A stretch of DNA of 64,000 nucleotides from Actinotalea endophytica (GTDB taxonomy: Bacteria > Actinomycetota > Actinomycetes > Actinomycetales > Cellulomonadaceae). Below the pieces are notes generated by a model, which was not told the origin of the DNA, did no database searches, and was given only the letters and a program-made list of their open reading frames with translations. The translations under genes and the position numbers were made by a program. The stretch spans positions 1-64,000 of the forward strand of contig NZ_JAOVZU010000013.1 in NCBI RefSeq assembly GCF_025717005.1, given 5' to 3'. Positions 5,317 to 34,427 of this stretch are shown here, piece by piece. The first letter of the stretch is position 1. Each line of letters opens with the position of its first letter.

Positions 5317-6357
5317 CTAGTTGCCTGCCTCGGCGAACATGTCACCGAGGTAGTAGGTGGCGGGGTCCCCGTTGGCCTCGAGCTTGCCCGCCGAGACGAA
5401 GAAGTCACCCATGTTCGACAGCCAGGTGTCGATGAGGCCGTTCTCGGTCCACTCGGTGACCTCGTCCACGGTCAGGATCTGCTGGTTGGCCGCGTCGGCG
5501 CTGACGTCAGCGGCATCCAGCCCGAGCATGTCGGCGGTGAGCTGGATCGCCTCCTCCGGGTTGTCGGTGCGCCACTGCATGGCCTCCTTGAGAGCCGCGA
5601 GCACCGCTTCGACCGTCGCGGGGTCATCGGCAACCAGGTCGTTGCCCACCACGAAGGCCGTCGGGAAGGCCATGGTGTCGATGAAGTCCGCGTTCTTCGC
5701 GAGCTCGACGAGGTCGGGCACCTGCTCCTTGATGGTCGCGATCGCGGGGTACCAGTAAGCGGCCGCGTCGACCTGGCCGGACGCGAACGCCGTCACGATC
5801 GCAGCAGCGTCCATCGGGACTGCTTCGATGTCGTCCTTCGTCATGCCGTTCGCCTCGAGCGCGAGTGTCAGGATCATGTCGCCGCTGGTGCCCTCGGGGT
5901 AGGCGACGGACTTGCCCTCGAGGTCTGCGATCGACGTGATCCCGGGCTGGGCGATGACTCGGTCCGCGCCGCCGACCGTGTTGATCATGGCGATGGAGAC
6001 CTCGCCCGACATCGGCAACCAGAACGCGCCGGGGCCGATGTAGCCGAAGTCGAGGTCGCCGGTGCCGATCGCCTGGATCTGCAGCGGCCCATTGGTGAAG
6101 ACAGGGGTCTGAACGTCCAGGTTGTACTCGTCCCAGATCCCCTGGTCCGCGGCGATGGCCAGGAGCGAGGCTCCGTTGAAGTCGGCGATGTAGCCGAAGT
6201 TCACCTTCGTCGGCTCGGTCGCACCTGCCGCGGTCCCGGCCGCCGAGCTCCCCTCCGTGGAGCCGTCGCCGGAACCGCCGCATCCGGCGAGCATCAGTGC
6301 GACCGCAGTCGCGGCGACGACGCCGAGGCGCCGACGCAGTGGGAGTGCGAGAGACAT
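5317..6357 (-). CDS. ABC transporter solute-binding lipoprotein, sulfonate/taurine type
   Basis: A 346-residue SsuA/TauA/NitT-like binding protein. Residues 1-26 form a lipoprotein signal ending in LAGC26; a Ser/Gly-rich linker follows, then the bilobal domain (FGYIADFNGASLLAIA). The ATG at 6357 is chosen because GAGGAG sits 7 nt upstream; a second ATG at 6372 has its SD touching the codon. With the ATPase and permease just upstream it completes an importer. The sulfatases downstream suggest that the ligand is an organosulfate or sulfonate, but the binding-protein family also covers other small anions and thiamine precursors. Confidence 0.88.
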   Translation of the reverse strand: MSLALPLRRRLGVVAATAVALMLAGCGGSGDGSTEGSSAAGTAAGATEPTKVNFGYIADFNGASLLAIAADQGIWDEYNLDVQTPVFTNGPLQIQAIGTGDLDFGYIGPGAFWLPMSGEVSIAMINTVGGADRVIAQPGITSIADLEGKSVAYPEGTSGDMILTLALEANGMTKDDIEAVPMDAAAIVTAFASGQVDAAAYWYPAIATIKEQVPDLVELAKNADFIDTMAFPTAFVVGNDLVADDPATVEAVLAALKEAMQWRTDNPEEAIQLTADMLGLDAADVSADAANQQILTVDEVTEWTENGLIDTWLSNMGDFFVSAGKLEANGDPATYYLGDMFAEAGN

Positions 6358-6442
6358 CGTCGTTCTCCTCATCCTCTTCCTATGGTGGTCACCCCGAGCG
6401 GGGCAGTTCCGTTCACGTCTGCTGCGCCGCCGGCGCGGGCGC

Positions 6443-7237
6443 TCAGTGCTCCCCCGGCTCCGACTGGTGGTAGACGGCGGTCCAGACGCGGTTGCGCAGC
6501 TCGGAGAACTCCGGCGAGAGCCGGACCTCCTCGGTGCGCGGGTAGGGCAGGTCCACATCGATGACCTCGAAGATGCGGCCCGGTCTCGCGGCCATCACCA
6601 CGACGCGGTTGCCGAGAATCACGGCTTCGTCGACGTCGTGCGTGATGAACATGACGGTGCGCTTCTCAGCGCTCCACGTGTCGAGCAGCTGTTCCTGAAG
6701 CTTCACGCGGGTCAGGGCGTCGAGGGCACCGAAGGGCTCGTCCATGAGCAGGATCTCGGGGTTGACGGCGTACGCGCGTGCGATGGCGCACCGCTGCTTC
6801 ATGCCGCCCGAAAGCATCTTGGGCAACGCGTCAGCGAACTGGTCGAGGCCGACGAGGCTGATGAAGTGCTCGGCGCGCTCGCGGCGTTCAGCCTTGCCGA
6901 CCCCCGCCGTCTTGAGGCCGAACTCGACGTTCTTGCGCACGGTGAGCCACGGGAAGAGCGCGTACTGCTGGAAGATCACACCCCGCTCCGGGCCCGGCCC
7001 GTTGACGGCAGCGCCGCCGACGAGGGCCTCGCCGGACGTCGGGCTGTCGAGCCCGGCGAGGATGTTCAGCAGCGTGGACTTCCCACAGCCGGACGGTCCT
7101 ACGACTGTGACGAACTCGTTGTCGGCGATCTCGAGATCCACGCCGTTGAGAGCGACGAACTCCTCGCCCTTGAGCGGGAAGACCTTACGGACTCCCCGCA
7201 CGGAGATCCTTGGAGCCGTGCCGGTCTGCTCAGTCAT
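6443..7237 (-). CDS. ABC transporter ATP-binding protein, SsuB/TauB type
   Basis: 264 residues with Walker [10 protein letters not shown] (about 48-56), signature LSGGMKQR and Walker [13 protein letters not shown], the sequence style of the nitrate/sulfonate/taurine importer ATPases. The ATG at 7237 has AGGAG 6 nt upstream and overlaps the permease stop (ATGA). It powers import together with the permease at 7234-8016 and the lipoprotein at 5317-6357. Confidence 0.92.
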
Positions 7238-8016
7238 CGCCGCTCCTGCCATCCGGTGAGCTTCTCCTCCGCGGCCAGCAGCAACCGGTCCATGATCAGA
7301 CCGAGCACACCGATCAGCACGATGCCGACGAAGATCGTCGGGAGGTCGTAGTAGATCTGGGCGAACTGCATCCGGTGGCCGATGCCCGCCTGCGCGGCGA
7401 GGAGCTCGGCGGCCACCAGGGTCGCCCACGCAGAGCCGAGACCCACCCGCATCCCCACCAAGATGAAGGGGGTCGAGGCCGGCACGACGACTCGCGAGAA
7501 GATGATCCAGTCGTTGGCCCCGAGCACCCGCGCCGCATTGATGAGCGTGCGGTCGACGCTGACGACGCCTTGGTAGGTGGAGATGACCGAGGCGAGGAAC
7601 GCCGCCAGGAAGATGACGAAGATCTTCGGCGTCTCACCGATCCCCATGAGAACCAGGACGAGCGGTAGCAGGGCCAGAGGCGGGATGGTCCGGAAGAACT
7701 GGATCCACGGCTCGAAGATGCCGCGCGCAACCACGTACCAGCCCATCAGGAAGCCCGTGGGCACCGCCGCCGCCGTGCCGAGGAGGAATCCGCTCAGCAC
7801 CCGGCCGAGCGAGGCCATCACGTCCTCCTGCAGCAGCCCCTTCTGCCACAGGTCGACCGCCGCCTCGACGACCTCGGGCGGGGTCGGGAAGTTGAAGCCG
7901 TGCTCGGCCAGGTACCACCAGAGGGCGATGCCTCCCACCACGGAGGCGATGTTGAGGACGACGAGCCGCGCACTGGGTGATATGCCGCGTCGTGTCGTCA
8001 GGCTGGCGGTTGCCAT
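7234..8016 (-). CDS. ABC transporter permease, SsuC/TauC type
   Basis: 260 residues, about six membrane helices, with the inner-membrane permease EAA region (near [17 protein letters not shown]). The ATG at 8016 overlaps the last base of the ROK gene stop (TGATG) and has GGGAG 4 nt upstream. Tight overlap on both sides places it in one operon with the regulator and the ATPase. Substrate specificity is inferred only from neighbours. Confidence 0.9.
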
Positions 8017-9233
8017 CAGGCTCCCATCCTCGGGTGCACCGATCTGTGCACGGGTTGACTCCCGGCCGCGGGCAGCAGGTCGGTGCGGTAGAGCGCCGCG
8101 ATGGCGCCATGGGCGCCACCGACATCGCCGAGGTGTGCGCCCCTGACGTTCGGTACGGTCTCGGCGATCGGCGAGAGCTCGAACTTGAGGGTCTGGGCGA
8201 CCGCCTCGATGATCGCGGGGGCCACTCGGCCGGCCTGGCCCGCGACGACGACCTCGCTCGGGTTCACGACCATGGCGACACCGGCGAGGACGCGCCCGAT
8301 CGTCGTGCCGACACTTCGGAGCACTCGATCGACCGCCGGGTTCCCCGACTCGACCGCTGCAGCGAGATCGTCGATGCTCGCGACGTTCGCTCCTGCGGCG
8401 CGACAGCTCTCGAGGATCGCCGGGAGCGAAGCGACCGTCTCGAGGCATCCGGTCTTGCCACAGCGGCACACCGCGCCATCCGGGGCCACGCTGACGTGCC
8501 CGAACTCACCCGCCAAGCCGGCCGACCCGGAGACGAGGTGCCCGTCCACGATCACCGCGCCCCCCACCCCGTCGCCGATGCGCAGGTACAGGAGGTCCCG
8601 CACGTTCTCGGCCCCCGCAAGGATCGCCTCGGCCAGGCCGGCGAAGCGCGTGTTGTTCTTGACCAGGACGGACACACCGAACCGCTCGAGGAAGGCATCC
8701 TCGACCCCGGGAGGAACTCGCGGGGCGAACGCCTGCGAACCTGGAGACCTCGGCGGCGGATAGGGGCCGGGCACTCCGATCCCGACGCCCTGGATGGCGT
8801 CGAGGTGCGTCCCGGTCCTCCTGGCCTCGCGCTCGATGAGATCGATCGCGGCGGCGATTCGCTCTGGCCACGGCGTCTCGGCGCTGTACGTGGCGGTGCC
8901 CGATGCGACGATGGCGTGCGACGCGTCCGCGATGGCCACGTGTACCCGTTGATGCCCGAAGTCCACACCGACGAACTGCCCCGCGGCCGGGTCGAGCGCG
9001 AGGTACTCGGCCGGTCTGCCACTGCCGAGGCGGGTGTCCGCATCTGTGGCAGCGACAACGATCGCACCGCGGGCGAGCAGGTCGGCGGCGATCTCCGACG
9101 TAGTCGTGCGCGACAGCCCGACCTGCTGGGCGATCTGCGCCCGGGACATCGCGCCTCGCTCGCCGAGTGCGGCGAGAACGCGCGCCTCATGGGTGCGACG
9201 CAGCTGCGCGTGGATCCCGGTCGACTCTGACAT
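8016..9233 (-). CDS. ROK-family transcriptional regulator
   Basis: 405 residues: N-terminal MarR-like helix-turn-helix (about 25-58, [19 protein letters not shown]) followed by a ROK sugar-kinase-like domain with the GVDFG phosphate-binding segment (about 89-93) and a zinc site H246/C256/C258/C263 (CRCGKTGC). The usual catalytic Asp in the NDAN motif is Asn here (KNNTRFA), suggesting a ligand-binding repressor without kinase activity. It heads the sulfatase/importer operon, so it probably senses the imported substrate or its desulfated sugar. The ATG at 9233 lacks an SD but lies 7 nt after a -10 box, so a leaderless start is likely. Confidence 0.88.
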
Positions 9234-10685: not shown

Positions 10686-11930
10686 ATGAAGAGACTGCGC
10701 ACTCCGGTCATCGCACTCGTCGTCCCGGTCCTGCTCGCACTGACCGCGGGCCAGGCCCAGGCGACGCGGCCACCGGTCACGAACCCGTCGAGCGCCACGT
10801 TCACCATGAACGCCGAGGTGCTCGACGGCGGGCAGCAGATCGTGTCCCTGACGATCGACACCAAGCGATTCGGGGTGAAGCGCTCGAGCGTGTCGACCGA
10901 CACGTTCAGCGTGCACGCCACGGGGGTCAACCCGTACACCTCGCTCGACCCGAGCACGGTGTTCGGAACCTTCGACGTCGACCGCGAGGTCACCGGGGCC
11001 CACGTCGACCGCGCCGGCCGGATCGTCCTCGACCTCGCGTACGGGTTCGGCACTCCCGGCGCCTCGACGTTCGCATGGGCCAACAGCATCGGTCGCAACA
11101 TCATGCTCGACCTGACGTACACGATCACCCAGAACGAGCCGATCACCGTGCGCGGCGACCGCTCGTTCACCTTCGCCGCGCTCGAGCAGGGCGACGTGGT
11201 CGACCGGGAGGTCGACGCGTTCGCCGCCGGCGAGTCGAACGGGCTGAGCTACCGGCTCTACAGCCCGCGGCGCAGCAGCGACCGGCCGCTGATCGTGTGG
11301 CTGCACGGTGGCGGCGAGGGCGGCTGGGCCGAGGCCCAGGACAACGACCTGCCGCTGATCGCCAACCGCGGCGCCCTCGGGTTCGCCACGCCAGAGGCCC
11401 AGCGGATCTTCCGCGGCGCCTACGTGCTCGCCCCGCAGGCGACGGACTACTGGCTCAACGACCCCGTGATGGGGTACTCCGCCCAGCTCAAGGCGCTGAT
11501 CGACGACGTCGTGGCCACCCACGACATCGACCCCGACCGGATCTACGTGGTCGGTGCGTCCAACGGCGGGTACATGGCGCCGCGCCTCGCGGTCGACTAC
11601 CCGGACTACTTCGCGGCCGTCGTGCCGATCTGCCCGGCGCTCGTCTTCGGGACCACGACCATGATCTCGGACGCGGAGCTCGCGACGCTGTCCTCGACGC
11701 CCACCTGGATCGTCCAGGCGGTGAACGACCCGGTTCTCCCGTTCGCCGCGAACGGCCAGCACATGGCCGACGTCATCGACGGCTCGATCCTGTCCGCCTA
11801 CCCGGACGTCACCTGGGACGGCGTCACCTACCTCGGCCACTGGTCGTGGATCTACGTCGCCCGCAACGACCCGGTCGACGACGCGGGCGTGCACATCTGG
11901 CAGTGGATGGCGGCCCAGTCGCTCGACTGA
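10686..11930 (+). CDS. Secreted alpha/beta-hydrolase (esterase/peptidase-like)
   Basis: 414 residues. A Sec signal peptide (about 1-26, ending AQA) is followed by an immunoglobulin-like N-terminal domain (about 30-165) and an alpha/beta-hydrolase domain with the oxyanion motif HGGGEGG and nucleophile G-A-S292-N-G-G. The two-domain layout resembles extracellular esterases with an N-terminal Ig-like module. SD GGAG lies 5 nt before the ATG. Upstream are a strong promoter and a CRP-type site, so expression is probably tied to cAMP/carbon status. Substrate may be a polysaccharide-linked ester or a peptide; not determinable here. Confidence 0.8.
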   Translation: MKRLRTPVIALVVPVLLALTAGQAQATRPPVTNPSSATFTMNAEVLDGGQQIVSLTIDTKRFGVKRSSVSTDTFSVHATGVNPYTSLDPSTVFGTFDVDREVTGAHVDRAGRIVLDLAYGFGTPGASTFAWANSIGRNIMLDLTYTITQNEPITVRGDRSFTFAALEQGDVVDREVDAFAAGESNGLSYRLYSPRRSSDRPLIVWLHGGGEGGWAEAQDNDLPLIANRGALGFATPEAQRIFRGAYVLAPQATDYWLNDPVMGYSAQLKALIDDVVATHDIDPDRIYVVGASNGGYMAPRLAVDYPDYFAAVVPICPALVFGTTTMISDAELATLSSTPTWIVQAVNDPVLPFAANGQHMADVIDGSILSAYPDVTWDGVTYLGHWSWIYVARNDPVDDAGVHIWQWMAAQSLD

Positions 11931-11949
11931 GCTCGCAACCCTGCCGGCA

Positions 11950-11988
11950 GGCTCCGGCGCGGCGTCCTCGTGGCGCCGTGCCGGAGCC
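11950..11988. terminator. Hairpin terminator between convergent genes
   Basis: A 15-bp stem with one G-T pair: outer arms GGCTCCGGC (11950-11958) and GCCGGAGCC (11980-11988). It lies between the esterase stop and the convergent ABC permease stop. No U-tract on either side. Confidence 0.65.
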
Positions 11989-11991
11989 GTC

Positions 11992-12768
11992 TCACACGTT
12001 CGTGTCCCGGCGCACGAAGCCCGCGATCCCCGCGGTCGCGGCCAGGGCGCCGAGCACGACCAGCGCGGCCATTCCGACCCAGTCCGCGCCGTTCAGCAGC
12101 GGGCGGTCGCCGACGTACCACCAGTACGGCGAGAGGTTCGTCATCCAGTCGAGCTCTGCGAGCGGGCCCAGGTACGCGAGCAGGTACGACGCGACGGCCA
12201 GGCCGCTCCCGGCCGCGAGGGCGTGGGCGCGCCGACCGGTGATCGCCCCGATCGCGTAGGTGACCGTCCCGATCGCGCCCGCGAACAGCCACAGGGCGAC
12301 AGTCGCGGCGACCAGGTGCCCGACGGGGATCTCCAGCGAGAGGACGGGGTCCAGCACACCGACGACCAGCAGCACACCCCCGGCCGGACCGAGAAGGAAG
12401 ACCCACAGGGTCGCGATCCGGTGCCAGTAGACCGCGCCGCGGCTCACCGGCGCGGCGAGCTCGAGCTCGAGAAGACCGCGTTCCTCCTCGCCGGCGATCA
12501 GCCGCGCGCCGGCGCCGATCCCGCAGGTCAGCGTGAGCACCGCACCCACCAGCGAGAAGACCGTGGCGTTCACGTACCCGGCACCCGAGGTGAACGCGTC
12601 CCAGCCGAGCGCGACCAGCACCGCGTCCGGGAAGGACTCCAGCATCCCCTCGATCTGCATGCCCCCGATGACCGGGTAGAACGCGGTGTACATCGCGGCG
12701 ACCGCGGCGATCGCTACGGTCCACCAGAGCATGGCCCGCCGCCTGGTCCCGAGCAGGTACGCGGTCAC
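11992..12768 (-). CDS. ABC transporter permease (ABC-2 type exporter)
   Basis: 258 residues from GTG at 12768, about six hydrophobic segments, with the EERGLLELELAAPVSR loop typical of ABC-2 permeases of drug/antibiotic or lipid exporters. The GTG overlaps the stop of the ATPase gene (GTGA), so the pair is one operon. Substrate unknown. Confidence 0.85.
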   Translation of the reverse strand: MTAYLLGTRRRAMLWWTVAIAAVAAMYTAFYPVIGGMQIEGMLESFPDAVLVALGWDAFTSGAGYVNATVFSLVGAVLTLTCGIGAGARLIAGEEERGLLELELAAPVSRGAVYWHRIATLWVFLLGPAGGVLLVVGVLDPVLSLEIPVGHLVAATVALWLFAGAIGTVTYAIGAITGRRAHALAAGSGLAVASYLLAYLGPLAELDWMTNLSPYWWYVGDRPLLNGADWVGMAALVVLGALAATAGIAGFVRRDTNV

Positions 12769-29079: not shown

Positions 29080-29630
29080 CATTCCTCCGCCGCGCCGCCC
29101 TGGCGCCGCTCGTCGCCCTCGTGGCGACCCTCGCCGCCTGTGGCTCGACCCCGGGCGGCACCGACGGGCTCACCGTCACCGACGCCTGGGTCAAGGCCGC
29201 CGACTCCGGTATGACCGGAGCGTTCGGCATGCTCGTCAACGACACCGACAACGACATCACGATCACCGCCGCGAGCAGCGACGTCGCGCGCATGGAGCTG
29301 CACGAGATGGCGATGAACGACGCCGGTGAGATGGTCATGCGCCCGAAGGAGGGTGGGTTCGTCGTGCCCGCGCACGGCACCCACGAGCTCGCACCTGGTG
29401 GCGACCACATCATGTTCATGGACCTCACCACGGCGCTGCAGCCTGGCGACGAGGTGACGGTCACGCTGACGACCTCGGACGGCGAGACCTACACGTTCGA
29501 CGCCGCGGTGCGGACCTTCACCGGCGCCGACGAGAACTACGAGGGCTCCGACACGAACGGCGACATGAGCACCGACATGAGCACCGACGGAGCCACGGAC
29601 ATGAGCACCGACGGAGCCACGGACTCGTGA
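29076..29630 (+). CDS. PCuAC-type copper chaperone lipoprotein
   Basis: 184 residues. Lipobox LAAC22, then a PCuAC/DUF461 domain with the Cu(I) motif spread over MELHEMAM...MVM...HGTHELAPGGDHIMFM (His/Met-rich). The C-terminus carries near-repeats MSTD-GATD. AAGGAG is 7 nt before the ATG. Such chaperones deliver Cu(I) to extracellular oxidases. Neighbours CopC and a DyP peroxidase reproduce the copper-trafficking arrangement known around dtpA in Streptomyces. Confidence 0.9.
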   Translation: MTFLRRAALAPLVALVATLAACGSTPGGTDGLTVTDAWVKAADSGMTGAFGMLVNDTDNDITITAASSDVARMELHEMAMNDAGEMVMRPKEGGFVVPAHGTHELAPGGDHIMFMDLTTALQPGDEVTVTLTTSDGETYTFDAAVRTFTGADENYEGSDTNGDMSTDMSTDGATDMSTDGATDS

Positions 29631-30820
29631 CCGTCGATCGCCGGACCTTCCTCCAGGGCGGGGCCGTCGCCGTCGGCGGCGCGGCCCTCGCCCTGGGGGG
29701 CCGGACCGTCTGGGACCACACCGTCGCGCCGCAGCCGGCCGACGACGCCGTCGGGACGGCCACCGAGTCCTTCCGCGGCGCCCGGCAGGCCGGCGTGTCC
29801 ACCGCACCGCAGGCGTTCGCGGCCTGGACCGCGTTCGACCTGCTGCCCGGGACCGACCGCGACGCACTGGTGCGCCTCATGCGGATCTGGACCGATGACA
29901 TCGAGCGCCTGATGGGTGGCCGACCGCCGCTCGCCGACACCGAGCCGGAGCTCGCGACCGCACCGGCCCGCCTCACCGTGACGCTGGGCCTCGGCGAGGG
30001 GTTCTTCACCGCGGCCGGGGCCGAGGACCGTCGTCCCTCGTGGCTCGCACCTCTGCCGGACCTCGCCGTGGACCACCTCCAGGAAGGCTGGTCCGGCGGC
30101 GATCTCGTGCTGCAGGTCGCCGCCGACGACCTCATGGCCGTGACCCATGCACTGCGGGTGCTCACCAAGGGAGCGACGACGTTCGTCGTGCCGCGCTGGA
30201 CCCAGCGTGGCTTCCGCGAGGCGGTCGGGACCCGGCCGTCGGGCACCACGATGCGCAACCTGATGGGCCAGGTGGACGGGACCGCGAACCCCGACCCCGT
30301 GCTCCAGCCGGACCTCGTGTGGTTCGGCAGCGACGCGGAGCCCTGGCTGGTCGGAGCGACCTCGATGGTGGTGCGACGCATCGCCATGGACCTGGACGGC
30401 TGGGACAAGGTGGACCGCACCGGCCGCGAGTTCACGATCGGCCGGCGGCTGGACAACGGCGCACCGCTGACCGGCACCGACGAGCACGACGCCCCGGACC
30501 TGACCGCGACGGACGCGCTCGGACTGCCCGTGATCGACACCGCGGCCCACATCCGCCGCGCCGCCGCCTCCGGCCCGCGCGAGCGATTCCTGCGCCGGCC
30601 GTACTCGTTCGACGATCCGGACCAGCCCGCGGCGGAGCGGTCCGGCCTGGTGTTCGTCACCTTCCAGCGGGACGTGGTCGAGCAGTTCCTGCCCGTGCAG
30701 CGCAGGCTCGCCGAGATGGACCTGCTCAACCAGTGGACCACCCCGATCGGGTCCGCCGTGTTCCTCGTCCCGCCCGGGCCCGGGCCCGGCGAGCACCTCG
30801 CACAGTCGATCTTCGCGTGA
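29627..30820 (+). CDS. Dyp-type haem peroxidase, Tat-exported
   Basis: 397 residues. Twin-arginine signal (D-R-R-T-F-L, residues 4-9), then the DyP fold with the distal G214-Q-V-D217-G218 motif, proximal haem ligand H308 (DTAAHIRRAA) and a distal Arg near residue 349. GTG start overlaps the PCuAC stop (GTGA). In Streptomyces a Tat-exported DyP (DtpA) from a similar locus is needed for maturation of the copper oxidase GlxA; no GlxA-like gene lies in this window. EfeB-like iron-uptake function is the alternative, but no efeU/efeO is adjacent. Confidence 0.9.
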   Translation: MTVDRRTFLQGGAVAVGGAALALGGRTVWDHTVAPQPADDAVGTATESFRGARQAGVSTAPQAFAAWTAFDLLPGTDRDALVRLMRIWTDDIERLMGGRPPLADTEPELATAPARLTVTLGLGEGFFTAAGAEDRRPSWLAPLPDLAVDHLQEGWSGGDLVLQVAADDLMAVTHALRVLTKGATTFVVPRWTQRGFREAVGTRPSGTTMRNLMGQVDGTANPDPVLQPDLVWFGSDAEPWLVGATSMVVRRIAMDLDGWDKVDRTGREFTIGRRLDNGAPLTGTDEHDAPDLTATDALGLPVIDTAAHIRRAAASGPRERFLRRPYSFDDPDQPAAERSGLVFVTFQRDVVEQFLPVQRRLAEMDLLNQWTTPIGSAVFLVPPGPGPGEHLAQSIFA

Positions 30821-30897: not shown

Positions 30898-30973
30898 CGA
30901 AACGTCCATACTGCGGCTTGTCGACTGCCCCCGCGGCCGACCTGTCATGCGAACGATGACTGGAGACGCGACC

Positions 30974-31315
30974 GTGATCGATCTGGCCCCGGAGATCTAC
31001 CGGCAGCGGATGGTCGTCGAAGGGCTCGTGACCGAGTCGATCGACGCGGAGTCGATCAAGGGGTACCTCTCGCAGCTCTCCAAGGCCATCGACATGGTCG
31101 AGCTGATCGAGCCGGTCACCCATCAGTCCCCGCTCTACGGCTGGGCCGGCTGGATCCACTGGGAGACCTCCGGAGCCCACTTCTACGCCTGGGACGAGCC
31201 GCGGCTCTTCTTCTCGGTGGACGTCTACGCCTGCAAGCCGTTCTCCGCCCAGACCGTCGTGGACCTCACCCGCGAGTGGTTCGACGCCACGACCATCGAG
31301 TACAAGGAGTTCTGA
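30974..31315 (+). CDS. S-adenosylmethionine decarboxylase (SpeD)-like protein, atypical
   Basis: 113 residues, close to the length of class 1B AdoMet decarboxylase proenzymes. The region GWAGWIHWETSGAHFYAW...FFSVDVYACKPF follows the pattern of SpeD around its cleavage site and the IDVYTCG strand. However, the self-cleaving E-S-H motif reads E-T-S-G, and the following conserved His is changed, so pyruvoyl formation is doubtful. GTG at 30974 is chosen for its SD GGAGA at 7 nt; ATG at 30956 has none. TGATG overlap couples it to the LuxI-like gene. A binding or repurposed SpeD fold is likely. Confidence 0.6.
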   Translation: MIDLAPEIYRQRMVVEGLVTESIDAESIKGYLSQLSKAIDMVELIEPVTHQSPLYGWAGWIHWETSGAHFYAWDEPRLFFSVDVYACKPFSAQTVVDLTREWFDATTIEYKEF

Positions 31316-32049
31316 TGTCGGTCGACGCGCGCCTGCACGTCAACCCGACGGGCGACCTGCTCGAGGCGGCCAAGGACTGTGAGGCCGACGTCTTCCTGCG
31401 GTGGTACGGCAACACCCGAGCAGAGCTCGACGACGAGTACGGCCCGTACGAGGACGCCTCCGTCTTCCTGGCCGTCACCGACGCGCTCGGTGACGTCGTC
31501 GCCGCGATGCGGCTGCTGGTCCCCGGCGGTTCGGCCGGGCTCAAGACGCTCAACGACGTCGCGCGCGAGCCATGGCAGGTGGACGGAGCACGGGTCGCCG
31601 CGGCCGCCGCCCTGGATCTCGCGTCGACCTGGGAGATCGCCACGCTGACCAGCCGACGCCAGCAGGCCGCCAGCCAGATCCGTAACGCGATGACCCTGTA
31701 CCACGGCTTCGGGACGGTGGCGCGAGTCAATGCGATGAGCGCCTTCGTCGCCATCCTCGACGCCCGGGTCCGACGGCTGCTCGACCAGGTCGGCTACGTC
31801 ACCCGGACCTTGCCCGGAACCCGGCCGGGGTACTACCTCGGCTCGGAGTCCTCGGTGCCCGTGTTCGCGAACATGGCCACGATGGTCGGCCTGCAGCGCC
31901 GGGACTACCCCGACTCGTTCGCGTTGGTCACCCTCGGCAACGGCCTCGACGGTGTCGCGGTCCCGACGGACGAGGAGTTCCTGGTGATCTCCCGGCCCGA
32001 CCCGATCCCGTCGAGCTGGCTCTCCCCCGGGATGCTCGCGACCGTCTGA
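31315..32049 (+). CDS. LuxI/GNAT-like acyltransferase homologue
   Basis: 244 residues with AAGGAG 5 nt before the ATG. The central part resembles autoinducer-synthase-fold GNATs: acidic VTDALGDVVAAMRLLVPG (about 54-71), compared with LuxI's D..G.V.G..RLLPT, and T-W-E-I-A-T (105-110), compared with the WE-S-R strand. LuxI enzymes join acyl-ACP and S-adenosylmethionine; relatives acylate amino acids. Coupled to a SpeD-like gene whose family also handles AdoMet. Product unknown; classic LuxI residues are only partly kept, so the assignment is tentative. Confidence 0.5.
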   Translation: MSVDARLHVNPTGDLLEAAKDCEADVFLRWYGNTRAELDDEYGPYEDASVFLAVTDALGDVVAAMRLLVPGGSAGLKTLNDVAREPWQVDGARVAAAAALDLASTWEIATLTSRRQQAASQIRNAMTLYHGFGTVARVNAMSAFVAILDARVRRLLDQVGYVTRTLPGTRPGYYLGSESSVPVFANMATMVGLQRRDYPDSFALVTLGNGLDGVAVPTDEEFLVISRPDPIPSSWLSPGMLATV

Positions 32050-32100: not shown

Positions 32101-34356
32101 TCAGGAGAGCCGGGTGGACAGGTGCAGCTCGGTCCAGTGCCGCACCCACGGGCCCACCGCGTCCGGCGGCATCGGACGCGCGATGTGGTAGCCCTGCAGC
32201 ACGTCGACGCCGAGCGGCACGAGCTCGCCGACCGCGATGGCGTCCTCGACGCCCTCGGCCACGAACCGCAGGCCGAGCGCCCGGGCCATCTGGGTCGTCG
32301 TCTGCACGATCATCCGGCTGCGCTCGTCGCTCGCGACCGGGGCCACGAACGCCCGGTCCATCTTGAGCTCCTGGACCGGCAGGTCGCGCAGGTAGGCGAG
32401 CGACGAGAACCCGCTGCCGTAGTCGTCGATCGCGACCTGCACACCGTGCGCGCGCAGCTCGTGGAGCACCATCCGCGCCCGCTCGGGGTCCGCGAGGAAC
32501 GAGTCCTCGGTGACCTCGACGAGCAGCGAGTCGGCCGGCAGTCCGGCGCGCTCCAGCGCGGTGAACAGCTTCGGCAGCAGCTGACCGCTCACGAGCTCGG
32601 GGGGCGCCCAGTTCATCGCGACCCGGAACGTGAGGCCCTCGGCGCGCCACCGCGCCGCGTCCTTGATCACCTGGAGCATCAGGGCCTCGGTCAGCGCAGG
32701 CATGAGGCCGGCACGGCGGGCGTCGGGGAGGAACGCGATCGGCGGGAGCAGACCCTCGGTCGGGTGCCACCAGCGGACGAGGGCCTCCATGGCGACGACC
32801 TGCCGCGTGCGTGCGTCGACCTGCGGCTGGTACCAGGCCAGCAGCTGTCCGTCCGCGATCGCCGCGCGCAGCGCCTCGCCGCGCAGCAGCCTGAGGTGCG
32901 ACATCCCGTCCTGCGCCCGGTCGAAGAGCAGCACACCCGCGCGGGACTGCTTCGCCTCGTACATCGCGACGTCCGCACGCCGGAGCATCTCGATCGCCGA
33001 GGTGTCGCTGTCCTCGCGCACCGCGATGCCGACCGAGGCGTCCAGCGACAGGTCGATGCCCTCGACCCTCAGCGGCTGGCGCAGCGCCGCGCGGATCGAC
33101 TGCGCGACCTCGAAGAGCTCGAGGTCGTCCTCGCTCGGCACCACGAGCGCGAACTCGTCGCCGCCGAGCCGGGCGACCGTCGTGCCGGGCGCCGCGACCG
33201 CGCGCATCCGCTCGGCGAGGCTGATCAGGACCTCGTCACCGATGGAGTGGCCGAGCGAGTCGTTGATGTCCTTGAACGAGTCGAGGTCCAGCAGCAGCAC
33301 CGACACGGGGCCGTGATGCTGGATCGCGTGGTCCGTCGCCGCGGTCACCGAGCGCCGGTTGGGCAACCCGGTCAGCTCGTCGGTCAGCGACAGCCGCATG
33401 GCCTCGGCGGCCCCGCGCGCCTCGCGCAGCGCGAGCGTGAGCCGCCACCCGGTCGCCGCGAGGGTCACGGCTGCGGGCAGCCGGACGATCCAGCCGACCG
33501 CGTCCGACGGGGCGAGGACGAGGACGACGATCGCGAGCGTGGCGGCGACCAGGAGCACGGTGGCCGAGCCCGTGCGGCGCGGGACGAGGATGTCGACCGG
33601 TCGGCGCGACGCCGCCTCGGCGATCAGGCCGAACCCGATGCCCCACACCACCGCGAGGAGCACGCTGGTGGTGTAGACGCCGCTCGCGCTGAGGCTGAGC
33701 AGGAAGCTCGAGTCGGCCGCGGCGATGAGGATGAAGCCGACCGCCAGCATCGCCGACCGCAGCGTGCGCGCCCGCGCGCGCAGCATGATCTGGCTCAGCA
33801 CGACCGCCGCGAGCATGAGGTTGATCAGCGGGAACAGCACCGCGACCAGCAGCGCCAGGAGGCTGTCGGTGAACTCCCGCGCGACCGGGAGCACCAGGAC
33901 GAACGCCGACAGGCAGACGGCCGCGCCCCAGACCACCACGGCCTCGAGGCCCACGGACAGCGAGACGCCCCGACGGGCGTCGACGATGAGGAACGCGGCG
34001 AGACCCACGTACGCGAGCACGCACCCGATCTCGCCGGGAGCGGGGAACGCGACCGACTCGATGGTCTGCTCGGCATTGACGGTCGCGGACCCGAGCGCCC
34101 ACAGCAGGATCGAACCCGTGAGGGTCAGGACCGCGAGCCGGCGCCCCGGCTCGAGCGCAGCGACCAGGGCGAGCCGGAGGACGACCGCCACGAAGAAGCC
34201 GGTGAGCGTGGCGAGCACGGTCATCCTGGCCGGGGGGTCGTCCGGCCCGCCGGGGACGAACGCGTACACGATCACCCCGAGGACGATCACGACCCACGGC
34301 ACGGGCGCGAGCAGGCGCACGGCACGCGTCAGCGCTACCGTCCGTCCCTCCTGCAT
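32101..34356 (-). CDS. Membrane GGDEF-EAL cyclic-di-GMP enzyme
   Basis: 751 residues: about 9-10 N-terminal helices (1-305), then GGDEF (RLGGDEFALV intact) and EAL (MEALVRW, with downstream N, E, DDYGSGFSSL and K residues) domains. Both active sites look competent for diguanylate cyclase and phosphodiesterase activity. No RxxD inhibitory site precedes GGDEF. The start is ATG at 34356 with GGGAGG 5 nt upstream, rather than GTG at 34374. It converges on the LuxI-like gene. The membrane domain probably senses an external or lipid cue. Confidence 0.9.
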   Translation of the reverse strand: MQEGRTVALTRAVRLLAPVPWVVIVLGVIVYAFVPGGPDDPPARMTVLATLTGFFVAVVLRLALVAALEPGRRLAVLTLTGSILLWALGSATVNAEQTIESVAFPAPGEIGCVLAYVGLAAFLIVDARRGVSLSVGLEAVVVWGAAVCLSAFVLVLPVAREFTDSLLALLVAVLFPLINLMLAAVVLSQIMLRARARTLRSAMLAVGFILIAAADSSFLLSLSASGVYTTSVLLAVVWGIGFGLIAEAASRRPVDILVPRRTGSATVLLVAATLAIVVLVLAPSDAVGWIVRLPAAVTLAATGWRLTLALREARGAAEAMRLSLTDELTGLPNRRSVTAATDHAIQHHGPVSVLLLDLDSFKDINDSLGHSIGDEVLISLAERMRAVAAPGTTVARLGGDEFALVVPSEDDLELFEVAQSIRAALRQPLRVEGIDLSLDASVGIAVREDSDTSAIEMLRRADVAMYEAKQSRAGVLLFDRAQDGMSHLRLLRGEALRAAIADGQLLAWYQPQVDARTRQVVAMEALVRWWHPTEGLLPPIAFLPDARRAGLMPALTEALMLQVIKDAARWRAEGLTFRVAMNWAPPELVSGQLLPKLFTALERAGLPADSLLVEVTEDSFLADPERARMVLHELRAHGVQVAIDDYGSGFSSLAYLRDLPVQELKMDRAFVAPVASDERSRMIVQTTTQMARALGLRFVAEGVEDAIAVGELVPLGVDVLQGYHIARPMPPDAVGPWVRHWTELHLSTRLS

Positions 34357-34427
34357 GTGCGCCTCCCGTGTCACAGTCCGCCCCGTGCCTCGACGTCATC
34401 GACCGTCGATCTTCCCGGCTTGAGCGT

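Follow-up and report, generated by a model that had tools for sequence, protein, structure and literature searches.

The two short overlapping genes described here probably form the synthesis side of a self-contained cassette for chemical signalling, for which the GGDEF-EAL gene facing them would supply both receptor and output. They lie in the window (the whole 64,000-nucleotide stretch of DNA analysed, from Actinotalea endophytica), and a quorum-sensing-like cassette with a c-di-GMP or two-component output is our best reading of them. The first-pass annotation had proposed a signalling or small-molecule system built on two AdoMet-linked folds. Its signalling idea is strengthened because the pair is linked to candidate receptors, with a regulator domain nearby in 65 of 80 loci (the best 80 of 120 relatives), and its AdoMet chemistry is weakened because active-site residues are changed.

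The gene arrangement given at first pass was confirmed in the sequence. The gene 1 stop and the gene 2 start share the A of TGATG, a one-base overlap; SD sequences precede both starts (GGAGA for gene 1, AAGGAG for gene 2); and the GGDEF-EAL gene is convergent with gene 2 across a gap of 51 bp (Table 1). The protein encoded by this facing gene matched Pfam GGDEF at 2.2e-39 and EAL at 1.5e-63. It had been mentioned in the first-pass annotation, which missed that it is probably the third component of the cassette. Against the same four relatives, gene 1 had a dN/dS of 0.12-0.21 and gene 2 one of 0.28-0.53, and on these values we regard both as real genes; chance open reading frames were ruled out by these ratios together with the recurrence of both genes.

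Table 1. Positions of the features discussed, numbered along the window
Feature	Position	Strand	Description
Gene 1	30974..31315	+	SpeD-fold protein, 113 aa, GTG start, TGA stop
Gene 2	31315..32049	+	LuxI/FeeM-like GNAT-fold acyltransferase, 244 aa, ATG start
Candidate receptor/output, GGDEF-EAL protein	32101..34374	-	757 aa from putative GTG start; hydrophobic N-terminal part
Proposed sensor, N-terminal hydrophobic domain of the GGDEF-EAL protein	33400..34356	-	FPAPGE motif; multi-spanning look, judged by eye
CATACT, probable -10 element upstream of gene 1	30907..30912	+	assigned by eye

By eye, CATACT was seen in 8 of 10 inspected upstream stretches and so recurs in relatives, with CATAAT in L028 and no such element in L033. 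A longer upstream similarity was common to L027, L028 and the window. A DyP-type peroxidase gene (29627-30820), whose TAT signal falls slightly under the cut-off, closely precedes the pair on its strand.

Recurrence of the gene pair

Gene 1 and gene 2 were present in the same 13 of 59 related genomes, all 13 with the TGATG overlap. Of 394 class genomes, 9 carried gene 1 and 12 carried gene 2, with 8 carrying both; related genomes are not independent, and Fisher values are descriptive only. The genome with gene 1 only (G173) carries a diverged sister-type gene, and gene 2 occurred on its own in G077, G297, G220 (a match near a contig end) and G277 (a weak match). Since gene 2 stands alone in G077 and G297, gene 1 is not strictly needed.

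A scan of GTDB contigs found 120 relatives of gene 1, of which the best 80 were kept. Because it was seeded on two motifs, with the best 80 of 120 relatives retained, diverged members were missed, and many of these 80 loci belong to metagenome bins whose names are uncertain. These best 80 of 120 came from Actinotalea, Pengzhenrongella, Nocardioidaceae, Geodermatophilaceae, Micromonosporaceae, Mycolicibacterium sphagni and Acidimicrobiia, along with about a dozen Saccharibacteria, one Acidobacteria bin and single others. Many actinobacteria carry the pair, but it is not confined to them and is found in Saccharibacteria too.

Gene 2 lay next to gene 1 in 75 of the 80 loci (best 80 of 120), 73 identified by HMM and two (L094 and L102) by hhalign, so that the pair recurs well outside this genome. 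Neither of the two outcomes named at first pass as refuting its proposal, unrelated folds or a pair confined to this genome, was thus seen. The coupling was as tight as had been claimed, with gene 2 starting between -10 and +17 bases from the gene 1 stop in 66 of the 73 HMM-found loci and a one-base overlap in 21. In L094 and L102, the gene 2 counterpart is too diverged for the HMM, though gene 1 there is ~60% identical to the query. The HMM found no gene 2 in the other 5 of the 80 loci (L052, L065, L067, L068 and L083; best 80 of 120), and an ORF downstream in L068, compared as a possible relative, proved not to be one. L052 and L065 are second copies of gene 1, as their bins contain a pair as well (L042 and L037).

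We surveyed the neighbourhood from -3.5 to +4.5 kb for ORFs of at least 110 aa whose families occurred in at least 5 loci. The recurrent families were gene 1, gene 2, GGDEF-EAL, kinase and receiver genes, many shadow ORFs and two others. No LuxR-type gene came up among these recurrent families, nor an exosortase gene in the neighbourhoods, in what was a general survey rather than a directed search. At a distance of ~1.7 kb or more, the cassette is preceded in 10 loci (e.g., L057, 8655-9533) by an ORF that looks FolD-like by eye and could reflect mere synteny between related genomes. In the Micromonosporaceae locus L071, a Ser/Thr protein kinase gene (11128-12210) follows the pair, similar ORFs occur in about five loci, and such a kinase is possibly a local substitute for the receptor. 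The Mycolicibacterium sphagni locus (L078) has a Saccharibacteria-type layout in an actinobacterium, consisting of a SpeD-like gene, an acyltransferase gene and a 7TM kinase gene. This layout suggests transfer between Saccharibacteria and actinobacteria in either direction; the grouping has moderate support (81) in a quick gene 2 tree.

Linkage to regulators and their proposed sensor domain

Linkage was counted from domain midpoints within 4.5 kb of gene 1 in the 80 loci (best 80 of 120). The 65 linked loci comprised 51 with GGDEF and/or EAL and 14 with a histidine kinase, and the two sets were disjoint. As a near/far control, 38 loci with full flanks carried a regulator domain within 4 kb in 29 cases and in equally wide bands at 6-10 kb in 3. 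Persistent linkage of this kind to a sensor or output gene would be expected of a synthase-receptor system, and it supports the signalling role put forward at first pass. The remaining 15 of the 80 loci (best 80 of 120) showed no regulator domain. In four (L034, L041, L098 and L100), the contig ends about 1 kb or less past gene 1; seven Micromonosporaceae pair loci (L071, L084, L087, L096, L103, L104 and L105) gave no GGDEF, EAL or histidine-kinase match within 4.5 kb; and in four (L052, L065, L067 and L068), neither a regulator domain nor gene 2 was found.

The position of the regulator varied. By hand-assigned labels, it was convergent in 23 loci (Actinotalea and others), tandem upstream in 23 (mostly Geodermatophilaceae), tandem downstream in 3 (L086, L088 and L089) and divergent in 2 (L076 and L079), with a kinase downstream in 14, mostly accompanied by a receiver gene upstream. 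A quick gene 2 tree required 10 changes of arrangement when "none/unknown" was counted as a state. Two genomes in which no gene 1 was found keep gene 2 in contact with a GGDEF-EAL gene: in G297, the GGDEF-EAL end (6566-8893) overlaps the gene 2 start (5874-6569) by 4 bases on the minus strand, and in G077, the two genes are convergent and overlapping. Among the kinases, those of L078 and L093 carry HisKA_7TM above the cut-off and that of L057 does not (2 of 3 scanned).

By eye, the first ~325 residues of the window GGDEF-EAL protein, which are strongly hydrophobic, appear to be multi-spanning. Within its own genome, a strong match to this proposed sensor domain occurred at 1 of 30 GGDEF loci, that of the window, and the next reached 48 bits. 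Across the 394 class genomes, the domain scored at least 288 bits in 10, all with gene 2; the next scores were 190 (G338, with no gene 1 or 2 nearby) and 99, and the threshold for the strong set was placed at a gap noticed after the search. The sensor-domain and gene 2 profiles were built from gene-1-adjacent genes, so some matches are the profiles' own rows: 4 of the 10 strong genomes (G000, G139, G230 and G307) are profile rows, and 6 (G040, G058, G077, G170, G220 and G297) lie outside, at 44-79% to the nearest row.

Co-occurrence with the strong sensor domain held within the genus as well, where it was found in 11 of 19 genomes, namely all 10 that bear the pair plus G003; neither gene 1 nor gene 2 was found in the G003 genome, and its contig ends at the sensor gene. 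Weaker relatives of the domain (E 0.001 or better) occurred in 88 of the 394 genomes, many without the pair, and G439 (Blastococcus type) has the pair with no strong sensor-domain match. The GGDEF-EAL proteins of Geodermatophilaceae match the domain weakly or not at all. Across clades, the regulators examined differ, with N-termini that are hydrophobic and look multi-spanning by eye. Because c-di-GMP enzymes are numerous (30 GGDEF matches in this genome), one GGDEF linkage alone would be unremarkable; this generic explanation was rejected by the far-flank control and the own-genome sensor comparison.

Folds, active sites and competing explanations

Structure prediction was confident for both proteins. 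Gene 1 matched SpeD, and gene 2 matched the LuxI-type GNAT fold and the FeeM fold, so that the two fold assignments made at first pass hold. Gene 1 scored 37.5 bits against Pfam AdoMet_dc, above the gathering score of 25, and 14.6 bits against the NCBIfam SpeD equivalog TIGR03330, below its cut-off of 75.65; 49 of 63 members of the gene 1 family matched TIGR03330 at E 1 or better (best, 8.7e-6). A sequence search of the PDB with gene 1 returned weak photolyase and RNA-binding-protein matches only and no SpeD, and the SpeD assignment therefore rests on Pfam and the predicted fold.

We tabulated active-site positions of gene 1 in 81 rows (80 loci, the best 80 of 120 relatives, plus the window), mapping Thermotoga maritima SpeD by eye on the YG-x-x-G and Trp anchors, gap-free between them. 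The pyruvoyl Ser (Ser63) and Cys83 were both kept in all 81 rows. Three positions that we take to be canonical functional sites of SpeD were altered: Ser55 was Ala in 81 of 81 rows, and Glu62 was Thr and Phe49 was Ser in 80 of 81 each (best 80 of 120 plus the window). The position of His68 was Tyr in all 81 rows of the same set; passages of PMC10407285 describe this His as essential for self-processing of SpeD. A new motif, HWETSGAH, is near-invariant around the site, and identity to the window protein was 58-92% across 62 relatives. Because these four positions are changed, with the equivalog score in agreement, gene 1 is unlikely to be a true AdoMet decarboxylase. Its sequence leaves two readings, a pyruvoyl enzyme that has been neofunctionalised or a partner protein; with residues such as His68 lost, it may not be an enzyme.

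Gene 2 had its best fold and sequence matches to FeeM and LasI; protein acetyltransferases also scored high, and SpeG-type acetyltransferases were present among the fold matches. It reached 11.3 bits against Pfam Autoind_synth, under the gathering score of 24, and 24 of 61 family members matched that profile at E 1 or better. The Pfam FeeM profile was matched at E 1 or better by 8 of 61 (best, 1.3e-4). The model matched by most members was NCBIfam TIGR03694, the exosortase-associated acyltransferase (51 of 61 at E 1 or better; best, 4.2e-10); the window protein matched neither of these last two.

We took R24, F28, W34, D45, D48, R68, E97 and R100 (EsaI numbering) as the conserved LuxI residues and mapped them by eye onto 61 gene 2 rows through the LasI alignment. 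F28, R68 and an acidic D/E at E97 were each kept in 61 of 61; R24 was kept in 55 (Lys in the window protein), and D/E stood at D48 in 52. By contrast, W34 was Asn in 60 of 61, D45 was Gly in 47 and R100 was Thr in 55, with residues other than those of LuxI at W34 and R100 in every row. In its own numbering, gene 2 has Glu22, Phe26, Tyr41, Arg65, Lys76, Asp148 and Tyr173 as invariants, and identity to the window protein was 21-68% across 60 relatives. By these marks, gene 2 is LuxI/FeeM-like but no LuxI.

A sub-variant compatible with the signalling cassette is that gene 1 is a pseudoenzyme partner that binds the acyltransferase or its product, with gene 2 alone making the signal. We hold this to be a real, if minority, possibility. 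The absence of His68 from all 81 rows (best 80 of 120 plus the window) fits it, as do the gene 2 and GGDEF-EAL genes of G077 and G297 that stand without gene 1, and PDB titles on trypanosome AdoMetDC offer a prozyme precedent. However, the HWETSGAH pocket is near-invariant and Ser and Cys are kept in that whole set across phyla, which a mere scaffold would not need.

It is unlikely that the pair is instead a true AdoMet decarboxylase with a true LuxI synthase, together making an acylated aminopropyl or homoserine-lactone molecule. The predicted folds, the pyruvoyl Ser and catalytic Cys of gene 1 and the F28, R68 and acidic residue of gene 2 are all as this explanation would have them. Yet the replacement of His68 and Ser55 throughout, the low TIGR03330 score and the Asn and Thr at W34 and R100 oppose it, as does gene 2 without gene 1 in G077 and G297. 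A search of this genome for spermidine synthase (PF01564) gave 0 matches, with controls at 11 of 14, which could also count against this explanation, but its sensitivity is doubtful, as the same type of search with PF02675 missed gene 1 itself. The first-pass argument from two AdoMet-linked folds to AdoMet-derived chemistry is not supported by the scores and residues of both proteins. With several SpeD and LuxI marks changed, a product of aminopropyl or homoserine type is just one possibility among several.

We likewise give little weight to protein modification, in which the acyltransferase would acylate the neighbouring GGDEF-EAL protein or kinase and the SpeD-fold protein would be a regulatory subunit. 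The GNAT fold, with its high-scoring protein acetyltransferases, and the frequent regulator linkage agree with such a role. Still, the best matches, FeeM and LasI, acylate small molecules, and the regulators differ by clade and have membrane-sensor-like N-termini, with HisKA_7TM in 2 of 3 kinases. A metabolic module for amine detoxification or polyamine acetylation that sits beside regulators by local history is improbable, for although the SpeD fold is tied to polyamines and SpeG-type acetyltransferases are among the fold matches, the near/far contrast (29 vs 3 of 38), the co-occurrence of the sensor domain with gene 2 and the several gene orders speak against it.

Proposed mechanism and related systems

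In the preferred signalling cassette, gene 2 would N-acylate a small amine or amino acid, and gene 1, a repurposed SpeD fold, would supply or modify the amine part, perhaps through pyruvoyl decarboxylation in an altered form, or would alternatively act as a partner subunit. Gene 1 is far more conserved than gene 2, as would be expected if the core step stayed constant while the specificity step diversified: fast divergence of gene 2 would set specificity, and the near-constant gene 1 would prepare or modify a common amine or serve as partner. The hydrophobic N-terminal domain would sense the product, and the GGDEF-EAL protein would in response change c-di-GMP. A histidine kinase would take the place of the receptor in Mycolicibacterium sphagni and Saccharibacteria, turning the output to phosphorylation. 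Folds, pairing, linkage and the joint occurrence of the sensor domain and gene 2 come from computation, and from them we infer, as the most economical reading, a small molecule that is made, acylated and sensed by a membrane domain; we file the cassette as a putative variant of the synthase-receptor kind rather than as a member of SpeD or LuxI.

With LuxI/LuxR and FeeM-type synthases, gene 2 shares fold, size and an invariant Arg and Phe. It differs in its SpeD-fold partner in 75 of 80 gene 1 loci (best 80 of 120), in three changed LuxI positions and in having a membrane regulator as its usual neighbour. In CqsA/CqsS-type quorum systems, a synthase gene likewise adjoins the gene for a membrane sensor kinase; the synthase family there is another one, and the output here is usually a c-di-GMP enzyme. 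The synthase-beside-kinase layout is also found in PMC7567580 (mSystems 2020), passages of which report 36 LuxI homologues detected by HMM in CPR genomes, 18 adjoining a sensory kinase, and propose complete quorum-sensing systems. That layout is the same as in the Saccharibacteria loci here and, because the loci probably overlap with those of that paper, is not new. The main text of PMC7567580 contains no mention of SpeD, decarboxylase, adenosylmethionine, c-di-GMP or GGDEF. Seen here and not there are a partner of SpeD fold, the spread through actinobacteria and the GGDEF-EAL candidate receptor.

For gene 1, the nearest known proteins are class 1b AdoMet decarboxylase and the SpeD offshoots SpeDC and SpeDA, which decarboxylate ornithine and arginine according to passages of PMC10407285. 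Fold, length, pyruvoyl Ser and Cys are common to all of them, whereas gene 1 has Tyr for His68, the HWETSGAH motif and acyltransferase and regulator neighbours. Acetyltransferases and autoinducers go unmentioned in the main text of PMC10407285. Passages of PMC13136126 describe solo luxI homologues without LuxR in Actinomycetota, mostly solitary in metabolic regions, and a Salinispora luxI among environmental-sensing genes including sasA and tcrX, a layout that might be related to that of the pair. Term counts for that paper gave 0 for c-di-GMP, decarboxylase, Blastococcus, Actinoplanes, Actinotalea and Modestobacter. The Actinomyces host of Saccharibacteria TM7x and quorum sensing between the two are, by its listing, the subject of PMC6166536. 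We found no description of the pair in open-licence PMC papers, judged by title, the start of the abstract and passages.

Taken together, our results suggest a communication system of uncharacterised type in many actinobacteria and Saccharibacteria. To our knowledge, few actinobacterial small-molecule signals beyond gamma-butyrolactones have been characterised, and the ligands of the many GGDEF-EAL proteins are rarely known. The linked synthase pair names a candidate source of ligand for one class of these proteins and makes the ligand question testable in culturable genera, e.g., Actinotalea, Blastococcus and Modestobacter. The best-known Saccharibacteria live on actinobacteria, and the same cassette in Saccharibacteria offers a route to host-epibiont signalling. 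Tentatively, we propose a new acylated signal, with the SpeD-fold protein normally involved in its synthesis, that would be sensed at the membrane and passed to c-di-GMP in actinobacteria or to a phosphorelay in Saccharibacteria; shared by descent or transfer with the phylum of the known hosts, it might allow epibiont and host to hear each other.

Gene 1 would add one more to the uses that the SpeD fold has found outside polyamine decarboxylases. The diverged SpeD-like gene of G173 (L156, G173:C512, ~963-1316) is of the sister type, with DSG by eye, and lies directly after an EAL-domain gene without gene 2. A mobile origin of gene 1 was considered and rejected: its relatives were absent from phage records and, for the two motifs used, from viral contigs, and the three plasmid matches belong to a distant sister family (28-30% identity) in Acaryochloris, Halioglobus and Nostoc, in which ESG or DSG replaces the TSG of gene 1.
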